A stretch of DNA of 42,654 bases from NCBI GenBank assembly GCA_030041095.1, contig JASHON010000189.1:1-42654 (forward strand). The letters run 5' to 3'. The notes beneath the pieces are model-generated. The model ran no database searches. It was given only the letters and a program-made list of their open reading frames with translations, and was not told the origin of the DNA. A program made the position numbers and the translations under genes. Below, piece after piece: positions 10,346 through 24,311 of the stretch. The stretch's first letter is position 1, and the number at the start of each line of letters is the position of its first letter. The DNA comes from Terriglobia bacterium (GTDB taxonomy: Bacteria; Acidobacteriota; Terriglobia; UBA7540).

Positions 10346-11428
10346 TCAAGCGTGGAGGCGATGCTCTGCCACGGCGGCGGTTTTCCGGGCAAGTTGCGAA
10401 ATGGCTGCAGTCTGCAGGCGTCGCCAAGAGAACCATCGAAGCGGCCGGGTTACGGCGTCGCGGGGGAATTCATACACCTGGGCTGAAATGTTGCGGAAGG
10501 TGATGCGATGATGGATCGCGCCCAAGCGCCTGATTACGCGCGGTGATGGTGAACCATCCGAGATCAATGTTCCTTTCAGGTTTTCGAGCGCCTCGTGCGG
10601 CGTAAGCCCGAACCGCGACGGAAAGTTCCAAAGATCGCTGAGAAGATGATCGTCCAGGCCGCGAACGAGCCCGACTTTGCCGTCGCAGACGATCACCGCC
10701 GCGGCCAGGTGGTACGTTTCGGAAAGGCGGCGTGGGCGCGGAGCGGGGTATCGCTCAGGATCGCCGCTAAGGGAGGCGCGGCAGCATTTTCGGAGCGGGC
10801 ACGAAGGACAGCGCGGATTGCGCGGCAGGCAGACAAGTTGGCCGAGTTCCATGAGCGCCTGATTGAAATCTCCAGGACGCCGTGTGGAAAGAAGCTCTCG
10901 GAGTTGCTTCTCAATTTCTTTTCTGAATTTCACATCGTGAAGGTTGCCGCTAAGGCCGCGCAGCCGGCTAGCGACTCGAGCCACGTTACCATCCAAGACG
11001 GGGAACGGCGTGCCATAGGCGATGCTCAACACGGCGCACGCCGTGTAGTGGCCGACGCCGGGAAGCTGGCGCGCGGCTTCGTAAGTTTCCGGAAAATGCC
11101 CTTCGAAGTCATTCACGATGAGTCGAGCCGCGCGATGGAGGAGGCGTGCCCGGCGATAGTAACCTAACCCTGACCAAAACTCCGCCACTTTGTCGAATGA
11201 GGCCCGCGCAAGAGCGCGGCAGGTAGGGAAGGCCCGAAGGAAGCGTTCGTAATACGGAATAACGGTCAGCACCTGCGTCTGTTGCAGCATCACTTCGGAA
11301 ACCCAAATGGCGTAGGCGTCGTTCGTGCGCCGCCAGGGCAGGGGTCGCGCGTGGATCCGATACCAGCGCAGAAGCGCGGCTCGCAGGGCGGGCGGGGACG
11401 CCGGTCTTGATCCAGAATCCTGAATCAT
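10346..11428 (-). CDS. mutY: A/G-specific adenine DNA glycosylase
   Basis: MutY removes adenine mispaired with 8-oxoguanine. The HhH-GPD core shows the general-acid Glu in WVSEVMLQQTQV, the hairpin LPGVGHYTACA and the catalytic Asp in FPVLDGNVARV. A [4Fe-4S] loop follows with spacing C-x6-C-x2-C-x5-C (CLPRNPRCPSCPLRKCC). The C-terminal 130 residues are the NUDIX-like 8-oxoG recognition domain (AAVIVCDGKVGLVRG). The frame is open far upstream, but homology begins near the ATG at 11428 (360 residues); ATG 11437 adds three residues. Either way the start lies 1-10 bases from the divergent ubiD start, and an extended -10 box suggests a leaderless message. Confidence 0.93.
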   Translation of the reverse strand: MIQDSGSRPASPPALRAALLRWYRIHARPLPWRRTNDAYAIWVSEVMLQQTQVLTVIPYYERFLRAFPTCRALARASFDKVAEFWSGLGYYRRARLLHRAARLIVNDFEGHFPETYEAARQLPGVGHYTACAVLSIAYGTPFPVLDGNVARVASRLRGLSGNLHDVKFRKEIEKQLRELLSTRRPGDFNQALMELGQLVCLPRNPRCPSCPLRKCCRASLSGDPERYPAPRPRRLSETYHLAAAVIVCDGKVGLVRGLDDHLLSDLWNFPSRFGLTPHEALENLKGTLISDGSPSPRVIRRLGAIHHRITFRNISAQVYEFPRDAVTRPLRWFSWRRLQTAAISQLARKTAAVAEHRLHA

Positions 11429-11435
11429 CGTCCGC

Positions 11436-11444
11436 ATTATGCCA
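11436..11444 (-). promoter_or_regulatory. Extended -10 box, possible leaderless mutY promoter
   Basis: On the minus strand TGG-CATAAT (11444-11436) forms a TGN-extended -10 element. Transcription would begin seven bases on, at about 11428, which is the A of an in-frame mutY ATG. There is no recognisable -35 box. The element lies inside the first codons of ubiD. Confidence 0.35.
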
Positions 11445-12914
11445 TACAAAAATCTCAAAGACTTCATAACGCGCCTGGAAAGCGCGGGAGAACTGAAGCG
11501 GATTGGCGCGCCGGTGGATGTGGATCTCGAGATTACGGAAATCACCGACCGGGTTTCGAAAGCAGGGGGGCCTGCGCTGCTATTCGAAAAGCCGCGATCG
11601 GCGAAAGACGGGGTCGAGCATTCCATTCCGCTGCTCATCAACATGCTCGGATCGCGGCGGCGAATGGAGATGGCGCTCGAAGTGGGTAGGCTCGATGACG
11701 CAGCGCAGCGCATCCAGTCTTTGATGGAGTTGAAACCTCCAGCCGGTTTGTTGGATAAAGTTCGGATGCTGCCCGAGCTTGCAGAACTCGCGTCGTTTTT
11801 CCCGAAATCGGTCCGGACAGGACCGGTGAAGGAAGTTGTCGAGCAAGAAAACGTTTCGCTCGCGCGGCTGCCGGTGATGAAGTGCTGGCCGCTGGATGGA
11901 GGCAGGTTCATCACGTTTCCCATGGTCATCACCCGGAGCCCGCGGACGGGCCGGCGGAACGTAGGCTGCTATCGTATGCAGGTGTTCGATGAACGCACCA
12001 CCGCGATGCACTGGCAGATTCACAAGGGAGGCGCAGAGCATTTCCGATGGCTTGACAGACAAGGGCAGCACCGGCGAATGCAAGTCGCGGTCGCGTTAGG
12101 AGCGGACCCTGCTACGATGCTTGCCGCCATTCTGCCTTTGCCCGAGGATGTCGATGAATTCATGTTTGCGGGATTTTTACGAAAAGCGCCCGTCGAGCTC
12201 GTCAAGTGCGAAACAGTTGATCTCGAAGTTCCGGCTAATGCGGAGATCGTCCTGGAAGGTTACGTTGACCTCGACGACATTCGCGTGGAAGGGCCGTTTG
12301 GCGATCACACGGGTTATTATTCGCTGGAAGACCGTTTCCCGGCATTTCATCTGACGTGTATCACGAGGCGCAACGAGCCCGTCTACGTCTCGACGATTGT
12401 TGGCCCTCCGCCCATGGAAGATTATTGGATGGGTCACGCTGTGGAGCGGCTTTTCCTGCCCCTCATGCGGATGCAATTGCCGGAGATTGCAGACGTGCAC
12501 ATGCCGCCGGAAGGCGTCTTCCACAATCTGATGATCGTCGCCATCCGCAAAAGCTATCCCGGCCATGCCCGCAAGGTGATGAACGGGATCTGGGGATTGC
12601 CGGGCGCGATGTTCACCAAATGCCTGGTGATTGTGGATCACGACGTTAACGTGCACGACCTTGGGGAAGTGGCGTGGAAGGCTCTCAACCACATTGATCC
12701 GGAACGCGACGTACAGTTCATGCTGGGCCCGGTCGATCAGCTCGAGCATGCGTCGCGCCTGCCGAGTTTTGGCTCAAAGATGGGAGTAGACGCCACACGC
12801 AAGTGGCCTTCAGAAGGTTTTACGCGTCCCTGGCCCGACGAGATCCGAATGGACGACCAGACGAAGAAGCGTATCGATGCGATGTGGGGCGCTCTTGGAA
12901 TCGGCCGCCTGTGA
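11439..12914 (+). CDS. UbiD family prenylated-FMN decarboxylase
   Basis: A 491-residue UbiD-family (de)carboxylase, cytoplasmic and dependent on prenyl-FMN. The N-terminus MPYKNLKDFITRLESAGELKRI is diagnostic and fixes the start, which has no ribosome-binding site. NVGCYRMQVFD, MHWQIHKGGAEH and the acidic block EGYVDLDDIRVEGPFGDHTGYYS, where the catalytic Glu residues and cofactor contacts lie, are all present. The length is typical. Possible roles are ubiquinone or menaquinone (futalosine route) precursor decarboxylation or aromatic-acid metabolism. No ubiX or quinone gene is next to it, so the substrate is not assigned. Confidence 0.88.
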   Translation: MPYKNLKDFITRLESAGELKRIGAPVDVDLEITEITDRVSKAGGPALLFEKPRSAKDGVEHSIPLLINMLGSRRRMEMALEVGRLDDAAQRIQSLMELKPPAGLLDKVRMLPELAELASFFPKSVRTGPVKEVVEQENVSLARLPVMKCWPLDGGRFITFPMVITRSPRTGRRNVGCYRMQVFDERTTAMHWQIHKGGAEHFRWLDRQGQHRRMQVAVALGADPATMLAAILPLPEDVDEFMFAGFLRKAPVELVKCETVDLEVPANAEIVLEGYVDLDDIRVEGPFGDHTGYYSLEDRFPAFHLTCITRRNEPVYVSTIVGPPPMEDYWMGHAVERLFLPLMRMQLPEIADVHMPPEGVFHNLMIVAIRKSYPGHARKVMNGIWGLPGAMFTKCLVIVDHDVNVHDLGEVAWKALNHIDPERDVQFMLGPVDQLEHASRLPSFGSKMGVDATRKWPSEGFTRPWPDEIRMDDQTKKRIDAMWGALGIGRL

Positions 12915-18863: not shown

Positions 18864-18964
18864 TCTGCCATCGGGGAAACTTGCCGGATGTGTTGGCGGC
18901 CTGCAATTTACTTTTGACATGGAAGACTTCAAGGGCTCAGAGACAACGGAGCCAGGAGGAAATT

Positions 18965-19465
18965 ATGCAGTTTGACGATGCCAGAGAGCCAGACGATGGG
19001 ATGGACGATCTGGAAGACGAGCTCTCTTCGGATTACCGCGAGGAAGAGGATGAAGAAGAGGGAGAGGTAGTTCAGGGCGAAGATCTCGCGGATGAAGAGG
19101 CTACCGAAGAGGACGTGTCCTTCGCGGTTGAGGGCGAAGTGACAGAGTCCGAGACCCCTTCGACGTCCCAGGAAGCTCCGACTGCCGAGCCTAAAGCTGA
19201 GGTTGAAGCACCGGCTGCCGCGAAGAAGACGGCGGCTCCAAGGGCGAGGAAGAAAGCCGTGAAGCCGGCGGCGAAGGTTCGGAAAGCAGCCGCTAAGCCC
19301 AAAAAGGCGCCCCGTAAGCCAAAGCCTGCCGCGAAAAAGGCGACCGTGCGAGCTGGAAGCGCCCGAGCCGCCGCGCGACGACCCGCGGCACGACGACCCG
19401 CGGCACGACGACCCGCAGCGGCGAAGAAGAAGACTGCGCCTAAGAAGAGGTCTCGACGCCGTTAG
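18965..19465 (+). CDS. Histone-H1-like bipolar protein (acidic N-terminus, Lys/Ala/Pro/Arg-rich C-terminus)
   Basis: A 166-residue, probably largely disordered protein. Residues 1-75 are strongly acidic (runs such as REEEDEEEGE). The rest alternates Ala, Lys, Pro and Arg in AAKPKKAPRKPKPAAKK-type repeats and ends with three ARRPA units and KKRSRRR, like eukaryotic H1 tails or bacterial HU tails. The basic part is expected to bind DNA; the acidic part could act as an internal DNA mimic or partner site. AGGAGG five bases before the ATG and a promoter upstream support a real gene. No globular domain is visible and the exact role is not known. Confidence 0.75.
   Translation: MQFDDAREPDDGMDDLEDELSSDYREEEDEEEGEVVQGEDLADEEATEEDVSFAVEGEVTESETPSTSQEAPTAEPKAEVEAPAAAKKTAAPRARKKAVKPAAKVRKAAAKPKKAPRKPKPAAKKATVRAGSARAAARRPAARRPAARRPAAAKKKTAPKKRSRRR
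19376..19420 (+). repeat. 15-bp tandem repeat, three units
   Basis: Three head-to-tail copies of CGACGACCCGCGGCA (the third ends CAGCG) encode the RRPAA repeats of the histone-like tail. Identical synonymous choices in the first two units indicate recent slippage or duplication, so the repeat number may vary between strains. Confidence 0.9.
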
Positions 19466-19683: not shown

Positions 19684-20541
19684 GTGGTGGAGCACATTGA
19701 CGCGAAGCATGTGCAGGCAGGACGGACAGCGGTTGAGGTAGGGCGCCGCCGCGCCGTCGAGTTGATCAGGCCCATGCGCGGCGGGTCGCGCCCATGGTTG
19801 GTACGCTGCGACGACGAAAATTACTACATCGTAAAATTTCAAAACAACCCTCAGCACATCCGGGTTCTTGCCAACGAGATGCTCGCGGGCCAGTTGGCTC
19901 AGCTCATCCAACTGCCGGCGGCCAAGCCTGCTTTGGTGGAAATGCCTTCGGCGCTTGCTGGCCGGCTGAACTCTCCGCTTTTCCCGCGCGAGGACGGCTG
20001 TGAAAGGTGCGTTCCCGGCATCCATTACGGTTCGCTCTTCCCTGGTGATCCCGCTTCGGTTTTTGTGACTGATTTTCTTCCGGATCGCCTGCTGCGCAAA
20101 GTCAATCTTCTCCCGTTCCTGGGCGCTTTTGTTTTCGATAAGTGGACGTGTAATTGCGACGGGCGGCAGGTGGTCTTCGTTCGCTCTCTCGCGGATGAGA
20201 ACGGCGGGTACGAGGTACTGCTCATCGACCAGGGATTCTGTTTTAACGACGGCGACTGGGGCTTTCCCGATGGACCTGCCCGGAGTTTCTTTCCTCGCCG
20301 GCTGGTGTACGAAGGTGTCCGTGGACTCGAATCGTTCGAGCCCTTTCTTTCGCGCATTGAGGCGCTCGACCGCGGCCAACTCGAAGCATGCGCTGAAGCC
20401 ATCCCACGGGAATGGTGTCGGAGCGACTTACAGGACCTTTTCCGCCTGGTGGAACCTCTTTTTCTCAGGCGGGTGAAGGTACGCCAGTTTGTTATTGACG
20501 CGAAGAACAGTGAATTGAGGCCGTTTCCCAATTGGGTGTGA
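19684..20541 (+). CDS. HipA-like kinase family protein
   Basis: About 285 residues with the pattern of the stand-alone HipA-like kinase domain. RPMRGGSRPWLVRCDDENYY and VVKF-type YIVKFQNNPQH at the N-terminus contain the likely ATP-lysine strand. AFVFDKWTCNCDGRQVV matches the catalytic loop and LLIDQGFCFND the metal-binding Asp. No HipB-type antitoxin lies next to it, so a classical toxin role is not implied. GTG 19684 or 19687 starts just before EHIDAKHV, where homologues begin, with a GGGGG stretch upstream. It is followed after seven bases by a DUF3037 gene, a recurring partner. Confidence 0.75.
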   Translation: MVEHIDAKHVQAGRTAVEVGRRRAVELIRPMRGGSRPWLVRCDDENYYIVKFQNNPQHIRVLANEMLAGQLAQLIQLPAAKPALVEMPSALAGRLNSPLFPREDGCERCVPGIHYGSLFPGDPASVFVTDFLPDRLLRKVNLLPFLGAFVFDKWTCNCDGRQVVFVRSLADENGGYEVLLIDQGFCFNDGDWGFPDGPARSFFPRRLVYEGVRGLESFEPFLSRIEALDRGQLEACAEAIPREWCRSDLQDLFRLVEPLFLRRVKVRQFVIDAKNSELRPFPNWV

Positions 20542-20548
20542 GACGCTC

Positions 20549-21343
20549 ATGGCCGTCGCGGACAGGCTCAAACCGTGCTCTTACTACGTCGTCCGCTACG
20601 CGCCCAATGTACTGAGGAGCGAGGGCCTGAGCATCGGTGTCCTGGTGTATTGCCCCGAGGACACCTACCTGGGTTGCCTGTTCACCGACGACTTCCGCCG
20701 CATACGGAGAGTCGACCCGAATGCAGATCACAGGCTGATCAGGGAGTTGCAACATGCCTTTGAAGAGCAGATCGAAGAGCACGAGGGCGACTTGGAAGGG
20801 TACTTGCGAACGCTCTCCGAGTCGCTTTCAAACGCAATCCGCCTTGAGCCGCCGCGTGCTTGTCTCCTGGGTGACCCTCAGGCTGAAATCGAGGCTGTTT
20901 ACGCGCGAGCGGTCGGCCATCCCCTAATCCGTCCGTCTCCGCAGGATACCCGGCTGAAGATCAAACAGCGGCTGACCGCGGCTTTAATGCACGCCGGCAT
21001 ATGGGAACGCCTGGAGAAGCGGATTCCGGCTGCGCGCTGGACAAAACCGGGCGATCCGTTCACTTTCGATTATGGTTACCGTCCCAACGGCGCCATCCAC
21101 TTCGTTCATGCGCTTTCATTGAGGCGCGATATCCAGCTCGCCAAGACCCTCGTTTACACTCTGAATTGTGTCCGCCGCATGGATGCGGCCACGCTCACCG
21201 CGGTCGTAGAGGGCGCGCCAGAGGTGGACGACGCTTCCGCCCTGGCAGCACAAAGCATACTGGAAGACGGAGGGATCGGAATGCGGCCGGTTTCAGAGCT
21301 GGAGACCCTTACGGACTCAATTCGGCGCGAATTGAGGCCGTAA
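20549..21343 (+). CDS. DUF3037 domain protein, partner of the HipA-like kinase
   Basis: A 264-residue cytoplasmic protein. Residues 10-130 match the DUF3037 pattern (YYVVRYAPNVLRSEGLSIGV, then an acidic/aromatic helix region). The C-terminal part (about 140-264) is helical with KIKQRLTAALMHAGIWERLEKR and has no recognised domain. The biochemical function is unknown. The gene follows the HipA-like kinase by seven bases, which implies co-transcription and probably a joint function, for example as kinase substrate or regulator (inference). No clear ribosome-binding site precedes the ATG, consistent with translational coupling. Confidence 0.75.
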   Translation: MAVADRLKPCSYYVVRYAPNVLRSEGLSIGVLVYCPEDTYLGCLFTDDFRRIRRVDPNADHRLIRELQHAFEEQIEEHEGDLEGYLRTLSESLSNAIRLEPPRACLLGDPQAEIEAVYARAVGHPLIRPSPQDTRLKIKQRLTAALMHAGIWERLEKRIPAARWTKPGDPFTFDYGYRPNGAIHFVHALSLRRDIQLAKTLVYTLNCVRRMDAATLTAVVEGAPEVDDASALAAQSILEDGGIGMRPVSELETLTDSIRRELRP

Positions 21344-21405: not shown

Positions 21406-21449
21406 ATCAGTCCATGGAGGGGCGGAGTGAAATCCCTCCGAACGTTTCA

Positions 21450-24311
21450 ATGACTTGTCCGCACTGCCGGGCCGAAAACGACGCTGGCGCTTCGCGCTGC
21501 GCCCGCTGCGGCAAGGGTTTGGTTGGCTTCCATGCTGCGGAAACGCTTGTAGGAAACCGCGCCCCTGCCGGCGCGGAACGGCCTGAGCCCCACCCTCTGG
21601 CCACCACCGCGGCCCTGGCTACTCCTCCTCCTCAACCTACAACCGGAACCGATCTCTGGCCTTCTGCGCCCGGGCTTTCCGTGACACTCGAGCCCGGAAC
21701 TGAATTTGGGCCGCGATATCGCATTGAGTCGCTGCTTGGCCGGGGCGGAATGGGCTTGGTCTATAAAGCGCTTGACCTCGATCTCAACCGTACTGTTGCG
21801 CTTAAGCTGATCCGGGCCGATCTCACGTTGAACCCCGAGGCGCTTCAGCGATTCAAGCAGGAGTTGCTGCTTTCCAGCCGCATCTCGCACAAGAACGTCC
21901 TGCGTATCCACGACCTCGGCGAAGTGGACGGGGTGAAGTTCATTTCCATGGCCTACGTTGAAGGCGAGGATTTGCACCGGCTCCTGCGCCGTTGCGGCCG
22001 CCTCCCGATCGACCGGATCTTAAGACTCGCCCGGCAGCTTTGTTCGGCTCTCGAAGCCGCACATAGCGAAGGAATCGTTCATCGCGATCTCAAGCCTCAG
22101 AACGTGCTCATCGACCGCGATGAGAACGCCTACATTTCCGATTTTGGCCTGGCCAAGACCTTGGAAGCGGGCGCTCAGGAGATGACGCACACGGGGCAGA
22201 TTCTTGGCACTCCGCGCTATATGTCACCCGAGCAGGCGCAGGGGAAAACGGTGGACGCCCGATCCGATCTTTATTCGCTCGGCTTGATGCTGTTTGAAAT
22301 GGCGACAGGAACCTGCCCATTCAAAGGCGATTCCTTTGCCGAGCTGATGCTGCAGCGAATTCAAGAAAAACCGAAGAACCCCAAGTCGCTTAATCCTGAA
22401 GTGCCGGACTATCTGGCGCGTGTCATCCTTCGCTGCCTCGAGGCCGATCCGGAGCGCCGCTATCAATCGGCGAGCGAGATCATTGCGGACCTGGGCCGCG
22501 AGCAAGCGTCCAAGCCTCGGCATAGCACGTCGCTTCAGATCAGTTTGCCGTTGCCTGCCCGGCGCCGCTGGATCTACGCTGCGGTAGCGGCTGCCCTCAT
22601 CGCCGCTCTCGCTTTATTTCTGATCTCTTTCCGAAAAACCCGGCAACCGCATACGGGCATTGTGGCGGCGGGAGCAGGACGCCTGCCGGCGCTTGACCGC
22701 GGAAAGTACCTTGCCGTTCTTCCCTTTCGCGTGCTCGGAAACCAGGCATCGTTAGGCTATCTGGCTGAAGGTCTGGATGAATCGCTGACGGCCAAGCTTT
22801 TCAGCCTGAGCGGCGTTCACATGGTTTCGTCCTCTGCGGTCGAGAAGGAAGGGGCGGCAAAGCCAATCTCAAAAATCGCCCAGGATTTGGGCGTGAACCT
22901 GGCAGTTCAAGGCAGCGTCCAAGCCGTCGGGCGCGAAATTGCTATTTTCGTGAGGTTGGAGGACATGTCGTCCGGCCGGCTTTTGTGGATTCAGGAATTC
23001 ACGGGCGTGCCGCGGGATTTGTTGACCATCGAAGATAAGATCTCGAACGGCTTGATCGCTCAATTGCAACTCCATCCGGGCGCGGCGGAGCTCGCACGCT
23101 CGACAGCTCATCCTACGGAGAAGTTTTCTGCCTACCAGCCTTACCTCAAAGGCCAGGACCTGATGCGAGGTTTGCCGGATGCCAAAACGATTCAGACTGC
23201 CATCGATGACTACCAGGAAGCTCTTAAGCAGGACCCGAACTTCGCACTCGCTTACGCCGGCCTCGCTAATGCCAGCCTGCAGATGTACCAGCAGAAAAAG
23301 GACCGGTTTTGGGTGGAGCAGGCGCTGACGGCTGCGCAGCAGGCGGAGCAGCTCAGCAGCAATCTGCCACAGGTTTATATGGCGTTGGGCAACGTCTATA
23401 GCGCCACAGGAAGGAGCGCGCAGGCCATTACGGATCTGAAGCGCGCTGTTCAGTTGGCGCCTGGTTCGGATGAGCCCCACCGTCTGCTTGGGAATGCGTA
23501 CGAAGCGAACGGGCAGTCGGAGCTGGCTGTCGCCGCGCTGCAGAGAGCCGTTGCAGTCGATCCTTACTACTGGGTGAATTCTGACGAGCTAGGGAAAGCG
23601 TATGAACAAGCTGGGAAATATCACGAGGCTATGGCGCAGTTCCAACGAGTCGTGCAACTTGAGCCGGCGGATGCGGCCGGCTTCTTCAATATCGGGGCAA
23701 TTTACATGATCGAGGGGGATTACAGCCACGCGATTCCATCCCTCGAGAAAGCGGTCAAGCTCAATCCCACATTTGGCCATTATTCGGACTTGGGCACGGC
23801 ATACTTTTACGCGAGGCGTTTCACTGACGCAGTCAGCGCGTTCGACAAAGCGGCGCAGCTAAGCCCGAACCAGGAAATGATTTATGGCAACCTCGCTCAA
23901 GCATACCTTTACGCAGGACAGAAACAGAAAGCAACGCAGGCATTCGCCCAAGCCATCGGCCTTTCATATAAAGAACTGCAGGTGAATCCTCGCGATGCTG
24001 ATACGCTGGCGGACATGGCGGAATATTATGCGATGCAAGGCGAGGCGGCGCAGGCCATCCAATTCATCCATAGCGCCCGCTCCATCAGCCCGGGAAACCC
24101 GCAATATGCCTATGACGAGGCGGTCGTGGAGGCTGCAGCCAGGAATCAGCCGGCGGCCCTTGCTTCACTAGGCGAGGCGCTAAGAGGGGGTTATCCCGCG
24201 CGGCAGGCAGCCCAGGACCCCGAACTCTCCATCCTTCAGGGCAATCCCGACTTCAAAAAGCTGCTCTCAGGTTACAGTGGAAAACCTACTGCCTCCACAC
24301 ACGGCAACTGA
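21450..24311 (+). CDS. Membrane Ser/Thr protein kinase with zinc ribbon, FlgO-like domain and TPRs
   Basis: A 953-residue Hanks-type kinase. An N-terminal zinc ribbon (MTCPHC, CARC; C3, C6, C17, C20) and a Pro/Ala linker precede the kinase domain at about 90-350. That domain has Gly-loop GRGGMGLVYKA, lysine in VALKLI (119), catalytic loop HRDLKPQN (211), DFG (231) and APE-like SPEQ. A single membrane helix (374-394) leads to an external FlgO/CsgG-like domain (LAVLPFRVLG... VQGSVQAVG) and seven or more TPR units to the C-terminus. Typical of Acidobacteriota; it probably senses an external ligand. The start at 21450 is preferred because of the zinc ribbon; 21414 would be nearly leaderless. Confidence 0.9.
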   Translation: MTCPHCRAENDAGASRCARCGKGLVGFHAAETLVGNRAPAGAERPEPHPLATTAALATPPPQPTTGTDLWPSAPGLSVTLEPGTEFGPRYRIESLLGRGGMGLVYKALDLDLNRTVALKLIRADLTLNPEALQRFKQELLLSSRISHKNVLRIHDLGEVDGVKFISMAYVEGEDLHRLLRRCGRLPIDRILRLARQLCSALEAAHSEGIVHRDLKPQNVLIDRDENAYISDFGLAKTLEAGAQEMTHTGQILGTPRYMSPEQAQGKTVDARSDLYSLGLMLFEMATGTCPFKGDSFAELMLQRIQEKPKNPKSLNPEVPDYLARVILRCLEADPERRYQSASEIIADLGREQASKPRHSTSLQISLPLPARRRWIYAAVAAALIAALALFLISFRKTRQPHTGIVAAGAGRLPALDRGKYLAVLPFRVLGNQASLGYLAEGLDESLTAKLFSLSGVHMVSSSAVEKEGAAKPISKIAQDLGVNLAVQGSVQAVGREIAIFVRLEDMSSGRLLWIQEFTGVPRDLLTIEDKISNGLIAQLQLHPGAAELARSTAHPTEKFSAYQPYLKGQDLMRGLPDAKTIQTAIDDYQEALKQDPNFALAYAGLANASLQMYQQKKDRFWVEQALTAAQQAEQLSSNLPQVYMALGNVYSATGRSAQAITDLKRAVQLAPGSDEPHRLLGNAYEANGQSELAVAALQRAVAVDPYYWVNSDELGKAYEQAGKYHEAMAQFQRVVQLEPADAAGFFNIGAIYMIEGDYSHAIPSLEKAVKLNPTFGHYSDLGTAYFYARRFTDAVSAFDKAAQLSPNQEMIYGNLAQAYLYAGQKQKATQAFAQAIGLSYKELQVNPRDADTLADMAEYYAMQGEAAQAIQFIHSARSISPGNPQYAYDEAVVEAAARNQPAALASLGEALRGGYPARQAAQDPELSILQGNPDFKKLLSGYSGKPTASTHGN

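Follow-up and report, generated by a model that had tools for sequence, protein, structure and literature searches.

Judged by their sequences, the adjacent genes for a HipA-family kinase and a DUF3037 protein in the window (the whole 42,654-nucleotide stretch analyzed here, contig 188 of a 4.88 Mb genome) represent a real, intact and divergent HipAD-type pair. The preferred reading, held at a probability of roughly 60%, is that this HipAD-type toxin-antitoxin pair outlasted the decay of a domesticated phage cluster, which may have been gene-transfer-agent-like. What is new is where the pair appears to come from, namely a phage-particle cluster that was passed on mainly vertically and that the pair has survived.

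The kinase gene, the toxin candidate, lies at 19684..20541 on the plus strand and encodes 285 aa if the GTG at 19684 is the start, the frame being open from 19606 and the true start therefore uncertain. The gene for the 264 aa DUF3037 protein, the antitoxin or regulator candidate, follows at 20549..21343 (+). Both frames are open, and the spacing of seven bases on the same strand (20541 to 20549) given in an earlier note on this DNA was confirmed. Pfam HipA_2 was matched by the kinase at 46.4 bits (cut-off 27), over residues 26-93 only, and phrog_3162 at 51.8 bits; the partner matched Pfam DUF3037 at 61.1 bits (cut-off 22.6) over residues 12-122 (20582..20914, +). The two proteins were recognized by PADLOC as PDC-M66A (E 3.7e-10) and PDC-M66B (E 8.8e-11), respectively, and NCBIfam gave no match for either gene. 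Furthermore, the kinase had been described as keeping the ATP-lysine, catalytic-loop and metal-binding positions of its fold, in agreement with the alignment: K51 (in VKF; codon 19834..19836), D152 and N157 (DKWTCN; codons 20137..20154) and D182 (IDQG; codon 20227..20229), all on the plus strand, were invariant in 29/29 aligned homologues. These residues are presumably the HipA ATP-lysine, the catalytic-loop residues and a metal ligand, and D152, N157 and D182 have counterparts in HipA of the E. coli phage HipAD pair. A dead kinase was ruled out by this conservation of active-site residues.

An AlphaFold2 model of the DUF3037 protein had a mean pLDDT of 92.2. VIA-align comparison of its C-terminal domain (residues 130-264; 20936..21340, +) yielded Can2 at Z 10.2 (116 residues, 3.3 A), PspGI at 9.6 and Cdn1 at 9.4, with BstEII, EndoMS and XPF among the other structural matches, where models with no clear match typically reach a best Z of 7-8; Foldseek on the model was weak (best E 4.8e-3, none under 0.001). 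Most of these top matches are, we assume, of the PD-(D/E)XK fold. Column counts across 70 aligned DUF3037 homologues showed D169 and D174 to be invariant (70/70), and a conserved (D/E)xK pair was not found at 183-192. The model thus suggests a PD-(D/E)XK-nuclease-like fold that lacks the usual catalytic motif. Since no conserved (D/E)xK follows D174, the domain would be expected to be non-cleaving, and it may perhaps sense DNA.

The earlier note had proposed a coupled kinase-regulator module outside the known toxin-antitoxin types. The coupling was upheld by general adjacency, but the novelty was contradicted by the PADLOC assignments and by homology to HipA and HipD, from which the pair is identified as a divergent member of a known module, the PADLOC candidate PDC-M66, equivalent to DS-6 and HipAD. 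In hhalign comparisons the family profile of the window kinase matched phage HipA at E 1.1e-18 over most of the protein, and that of the DUF3037 protein matched phage HipD at E 1.4e-14, residues 8-156 aligning onto HipD 3-167. The genes annotated as HipA and HipD in the Escherichia phage PhiR5_1 record adjoin cI, and a CI-like HTH gene lies upstream of the pair in some of the loci related to the window. GenBank phage records yielded one kinase match and no match to the long DUF3037 protein (query from L109), and profile searches of the PDB returned four matches for the kinase (E 0.26-0.72, HipA-family toxins among them) and none for DUF3037. The window pair shares with HipAD the gene order, a HipA-like kinase followed by DUF3037, and the PADLOC models for both genes. 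It differs in that the kinase is 27% identical to PhiR5_1 HipA, that the partner matches only DUF3037 at Pfam E values up to 1, whereas DUF1829 is reported for DS-6B, that the C-terminal half of the partner, with its nuclease-like fold, is not aligned to HipD, and that the pair in Terriglobia is frequent, vertical and of phage-cluster origin. A HipA-fold kinase is also common to HipBA and HipBST, but the partner in the window is a DUF3037 protein; in keeping with the earlier note, no HipB-type or HTH protein was found beside the kinase by Pfam among the seven window neighbours scanned.

PMC12548924 describes a two-gene PDC-M66 in which deletion of the kinase abolished defence against Bas51 and deletion of DUF3037 was toxic, as well as a HipA/DUF3037 pair beside Retron-Sda1 that acts alone in E. 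coli. PMC13092281 equates DS-6 with HipAD, reports that defence is lost when a predicted catalytic residue of the kinase is mutated and that AlphaFold3 predicts binding between kinase and partner, and cites Brenes and Laub 2025 as the primary HipAD paper. By analogy with these homologues, which need the kinase for defence and in which deletion of DUF3037 is toxic, the DUF3037 protein is probably the antitoxin, and the description of the pair as lacking one is not retained. The Retron-Sda1 arrangement of PMC12548924 is alike in that a pair able to act alone is lodged in another element, and unlike in that the element there has a retron RT and ncRNA, while the relatives of the window have terminase and portal genes. 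Under the preferred reading, the kinase would be an active HipA-fold Ser/Thr kinase arresting growth via phosphorylation of a host target, the DUF3037 protein would bind and restrain it, and phage infection would disturb the complex such that the kinase is released.

Within the window, the neighbours of the pair are three riboflavin genes on the opposite strand, an isopropylmalate-synthase-like gene, and genes for a Lys/Ala-rich protein, a Ser/Thr kinase with TPRs and a small PEP-CTERM-like protein. The product of the gene directly upstream of the pair (18881-19465, +) has an acidic N-terminal half and a Lys/Ala/Arg-rich tail, a histone-like composition. Just downstream, a 965 aa protein (21414-24311, +) combines a zinc-ribbon start, a Ser/Thr kinase domain and TPR repeats; its matches to many PD-T4-6 models of defence kinases probably reflect a generic kinase. 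A PADLOC scan of ten further window proteins left seven with no match and gave one a weak mads_2 match (18.5 bits). A 528 aa protein (10349-11932, -) matched the PADLOC type II nicking endonuclease model at 101 bits over residues 186-385. The surroundings are not read as a defence island.

The pair was widespread among relatives. DUF3037 was matched in 29/39 genomes of the window's family (f1), in 47/61 genomes of the Acidiferrum-type family f78 (33 of its 39 good genomes), which we take to include Candidatus Acidiferrum typicum, in 241/399 genomes of the class and in 38/247 of the phylum sample. Two forms occur in the class, a short form with open frames mostly of about 130-200 aa (120-168 bits) and the long form of the window's type, of about 270-290 aa (mostly 45-90 bits). 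Within the window's family, 29 genomes had DUF3037, 29 had HipA_2 and 26 had both Pfam matches, and in all 26 the genes were adjacent, on the same strand and with the kinase first, which rules out chance neighbours; adjacency, the check proposed in the earlier note, is thus not rare outside the window genome. By Pfam, G005, G018 and G020 had DUF3037 only and G008, G010 and G024 had HipA_2 only, although a truncated kinase was found beside DUF3037 in G018 (L085) despite the missing HipA_2 match. Both genes were present at 30/30 loci with short or long forms (L038-L067), and a kinase was present at 59 of 60 hand-picked long-DUF3037 loci, the exception being L095. A single DUF3037 protein used as query against genome contigs gave no match; the kinase alignment used as query gave the loci. 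The kinase search gave 80 named genome loci, of which 71 also showed DUF3037; among the nine with no DUF3037 match (L150, L155, L161, L166, L188, L194, L198, L202, L206), some stretches end at the kinase and others continue. Kinase and DUF3037 are separated by about 0.9-1 kb at L088 and L090, with another ORF between them in L090.

Clustering of the neighbours at 60 loci placed the pair between a protein of about 500 aa and a Pfam phage portal in many genomes of f2, presumably Acidobacteriaceae, and in the f78 genomes G366 and G487. The protein of about 500 aa is a terminase large subunit (phrog_2, 84-90 bits; T4 gp17 by PDB profile), and the best solved-structure match of the portal profile was the RcGTA portal (6tba, E 7.7e-5). 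At closely read loci the usual order was terminase - kinase - DUF3037 - portal, inside a head-tail cluster of 19-26 kb; in G356 (f78) the terminase lies in inverted orientation at a distance of about 8 kb, and two frames share the portal. Elsewhere in the cluster, a head-tail adaptor was matched at 46.8 bits and a head maturation protease weakly. Matches to tail spike and minor tail proteins were also seen, phrog_4 identified a CI-like repressor at 70 bits, and one gene had a weak sigma-70 region 4 match, under the Pfam cut-off. No integrase family was found among 21 scanned proteins of the G366 cluster; the HTH of its repressor weakly matched a transposition-protein family (E 0.02). Neighbour cluster 15 is a capsid candidate by position and conservation, with no Pfam match at E 0.001, no PHROG match and a poor model (pLDDT 52). 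Clusters 6 and 4, compared as profiles with the PDB, had no informative match. A rearranged version of the phage cluster was seen at L195 (9001-18819), where purK/purE matches on the opposite strand separate the protease gene from the capsid candidate and the terminase match is in pieces. Cluster 12 (L102:2035-6642 and relatives) comprises fibre-like proteins of about 1500 aa with a KHYVD stretch and a C-terminal pattern that we take to be SGNH-hydrolase-like.

Across the class sample of 399 genomes, terminase was matched in 90 (83 in f2, 3 in f78 and 4 weaker in f3) and portal in 87 (84 in f2, 3 in f78), with no match to either in the window's family and none in G000. The matching genes are mostly open, being split or partial in a few genomes (terminase in G523, G613 and G595; portal in G159, G532, G605 and G356). 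An f2 sample of 150 genomes had the portal in 88 and the kinase in 106; the phage cluster in f2 is thus common, not universal. The kinase lay upstream of the portal on the same strand in 80/88 portal genomes, at 893-2450 bp (median 1155), on another contig only in 4/88, and was absent in 4/88. Contigs of a viral collection that carried the kinase, which may be virions or chromosome fragments, had the order terminase - kinase - DUF3037 - portal in 22 of 23 cases. A search of that collection by terminase gave 75 further loci, five of them with scores of 493 bits or more. Of these five, L232, L233 and L239 had already come up in the kinase set, L235 ends inside a kinase match, and L234 has terminase and portal and no pair. 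At the other 70 (at most 297 bits), no kinase, DUF3037 or portal match was found at E 1e-5 within limited flanks.

The fixed position upstream of the portal, retained in nearly all of the viral-collection contigs with the kinase, would suit a pair that is a dedicated regulator of the phage-derived particle, gating head assembly, packaging or producer-cell fate, with pair-only genomes holding a relic or re-used copy. The kinase and terminase trees, which share 16/17 splits, and the presence of a CI-like repressor and a weakly sigma-like gene in the same cluster point the same way. Nevertheless, lineages in which neither terminase nor portal was matched still have the pair, 21/105 typed kinase genomes of f2 lack the portal, L234 carries terminase and portal in the absence of the pair, and the homologue next to Retron-Sda1 works by itself in E. 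coli according to PMC12548924. Such a dedicated role is considered unlikely.

The chromosomal site of the cluster was recurrent. The G366 cluster, about 26 kb, is arranged as SLT - [repressor ... terminase - kinase - DUF3037 - portal ... tail] - PDH E2 - E1b - E1a - LipB, and in the f2 genomes G503 and G511, where the cluster spans about 19 kb, purE-purK come between it and PDH E2. Including these, the cluster ended near the same pyruvate-dehydrogenase genes in 3/4 genomes read further out; no PDH gene was found within the stretch read of the fourth, G577. As for pair-only loci, 21 of the 80 named genome loci have both SLT and E2 around the pair within the DNA covered, and in G279 (f2), which has no terminase match, purE-purK follow the pair immediately. 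The best PDH E2 match of the window genome is on another contig with the pair not nearby; the pair in this genome has therefore moved from the ancestral site. This displacement, together with the coexistence of short-form DUF3037 pairs and additional kinase copies elsewhere in the class, would be expected of a mobile defence system that arrived recently and was not specially tied to the phage cluster. That account is opposed by the common site in relatives and by the identity of the kinase (63%) and DUF3037 protein (62%) to those of the same-genus genome G029, and it is largely refuted by the congruence of the kinase tree with rpoB, window genome included, making it extremely improbable. In a separate observation, G607, G497 and G374 (genus g203) had 8, 5 and 4 matches to the long-form kinase profile, some of them fragments, while neither terminase nor portal was matched in these three within the class sample. 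These copies are a lineage-specific expansion away from the phage cluster, and because several kinase matches occur there with no terminase match, the pair can also spread alone.

To compare histories, trees were built for 30 genomes, the window genome included (the kinase being present in 29, terminase in 20 and portal in 21). The kinase and rpoB trees shared 19/26 splits (random mean 0.23, maximum 3) with no supported conflict. Corresponding values against rpoB were 17/27 splits and 2 supported conflicts for DUF3037, 12/17 and 1 for terminase, and 10/18 and 2 for portal; between genes, supported conflicts numbered 4 for DUF3037 and portal, 2 for DUF3037 and terminase, and 3 for terminase and portal. 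Given high split sharing with some supported conflicts, the history of pair and cluster was mainly, not perfectly, vertical, and the pair in Terriglobia is frequent and mostly vertically inherited. Pairwise dN/dS for nine genome pairs of relatives (seven for terminase, eight for portal) was below 0.4 for every gene, with 0.03-0.23 for the kinase and 0.04-0.20 for DUF3037, which shows the pair to be under purifying selection in relatives.

Frequent vertical distribution, unlike that of patchy defence modules, counts against the preferred reading and would also fit a housekeeping regulator, that is, a kinase-and-regulator signalling module unrelated to phage defence or toxicity. The tree matching rpoB, the low kinase dN/dS in the closest group (0.03-0.06) and the constant PDH-adjacent site in many genomes are as such a module would have them. 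However, homologues act in defence or as toxin-antitoxin systems in the tests reported in PMC12548924 and PMC13092281, the pair originated inside a phage cluster, and its presence falls short of universal (29/39, 47/61 and, for the kinase in f2, 106/150). A housekeeping role is therefore regarded as quite improbable.

The preferred reading, retention of a toxin-antitoxin pair after decay of its phage cluster, would place the pair as a once fixed internal part of a phage-derived particle cluster, between terminase and portal, the cluster having later settled in the chromosome of Terriglobia as a locus inherited vertically. The window's family and most of the Acidiferrum-type family would then have lost the particle genes and kept the pair, and in the window's genus the pair would have moved after that loss. 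Loss is preferred in both families because gain would need phage genes to arrive on either flank of the pair with an unchanged order and chromosomal site. In both the kinase and the rpoB tree, the cluster-bearing G356, G366 and G487 group as a single clade, with pair-only f78 lineages outside it, and a single regain of the cluster in this clade is therefore possible. The unaligned C-terminal half of the partner, the kinase loci with no DUF3037 match, the portal genomes with no kinase beside the portal and the supported tree conflicts also weigh against the preferred reading.

The head-tail cluster of the relatives resembles gene transfer agents, such as RcGTA, in being vertically inherited and under purifying selection, as well as in its portal. 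It differs in holding the HipA/DUF3037 pair together with genes for a CI-like repressor and a weakly sigma-like protein. Gene transfer agents are particles that package random host DNA, an activity that the acidobacterial cluster might or might not share. Literature searches on acidobacterial gene transfer agents, gene transfer agents with HipA, and domesticated prophages gave no title or abstract start describing the cluster, although full texts may. A study of acidobacterial prophages (PMC5900883) lists in its Table 1 a portal gene in 14/15 subdivision-1 genomes, two of which had no detected prophage; these counts fit an overlooked resident cluster and are not proof of one. Its prophage cluster 153 is placed at 3.78-3.82 Mb of T. 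saanensis, whereas the locus in G434 lies near 0.09 Mb, a mismatch if both are the same strain.

The unusual part of the pair is its phage-cluster origin, which was not visible from the window sequence read for the earlier note. A bolder and only tentative extension, which we would sooner doubt than assert, is that Terriglobia carry an old, vertically inherited gene-transfer-agent-like cluster with a HipA/DUF3037 switch between terminase and portal, in which the pair would control or insure the particle and outlive it, the window pair being a molecular fossil turned independent toxin-antitoxin or immunity locus. What looked like an orphan DUF pair becomes a traceable case of a toxin-antitoxin module fixed in a domesticated phage cluster and outlasting the phage genes. 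Two questions become testable in cultivable relatives, namely whether Acidobacteria produce gene-transfer-agent-like particles and what role a HipAD kinase has in its native setting. Furthermore, the nuclease-like end of the DUF3037 protein, lacking the usual catalytic motif, offers a lead on how an antitoxin might sense DNA.
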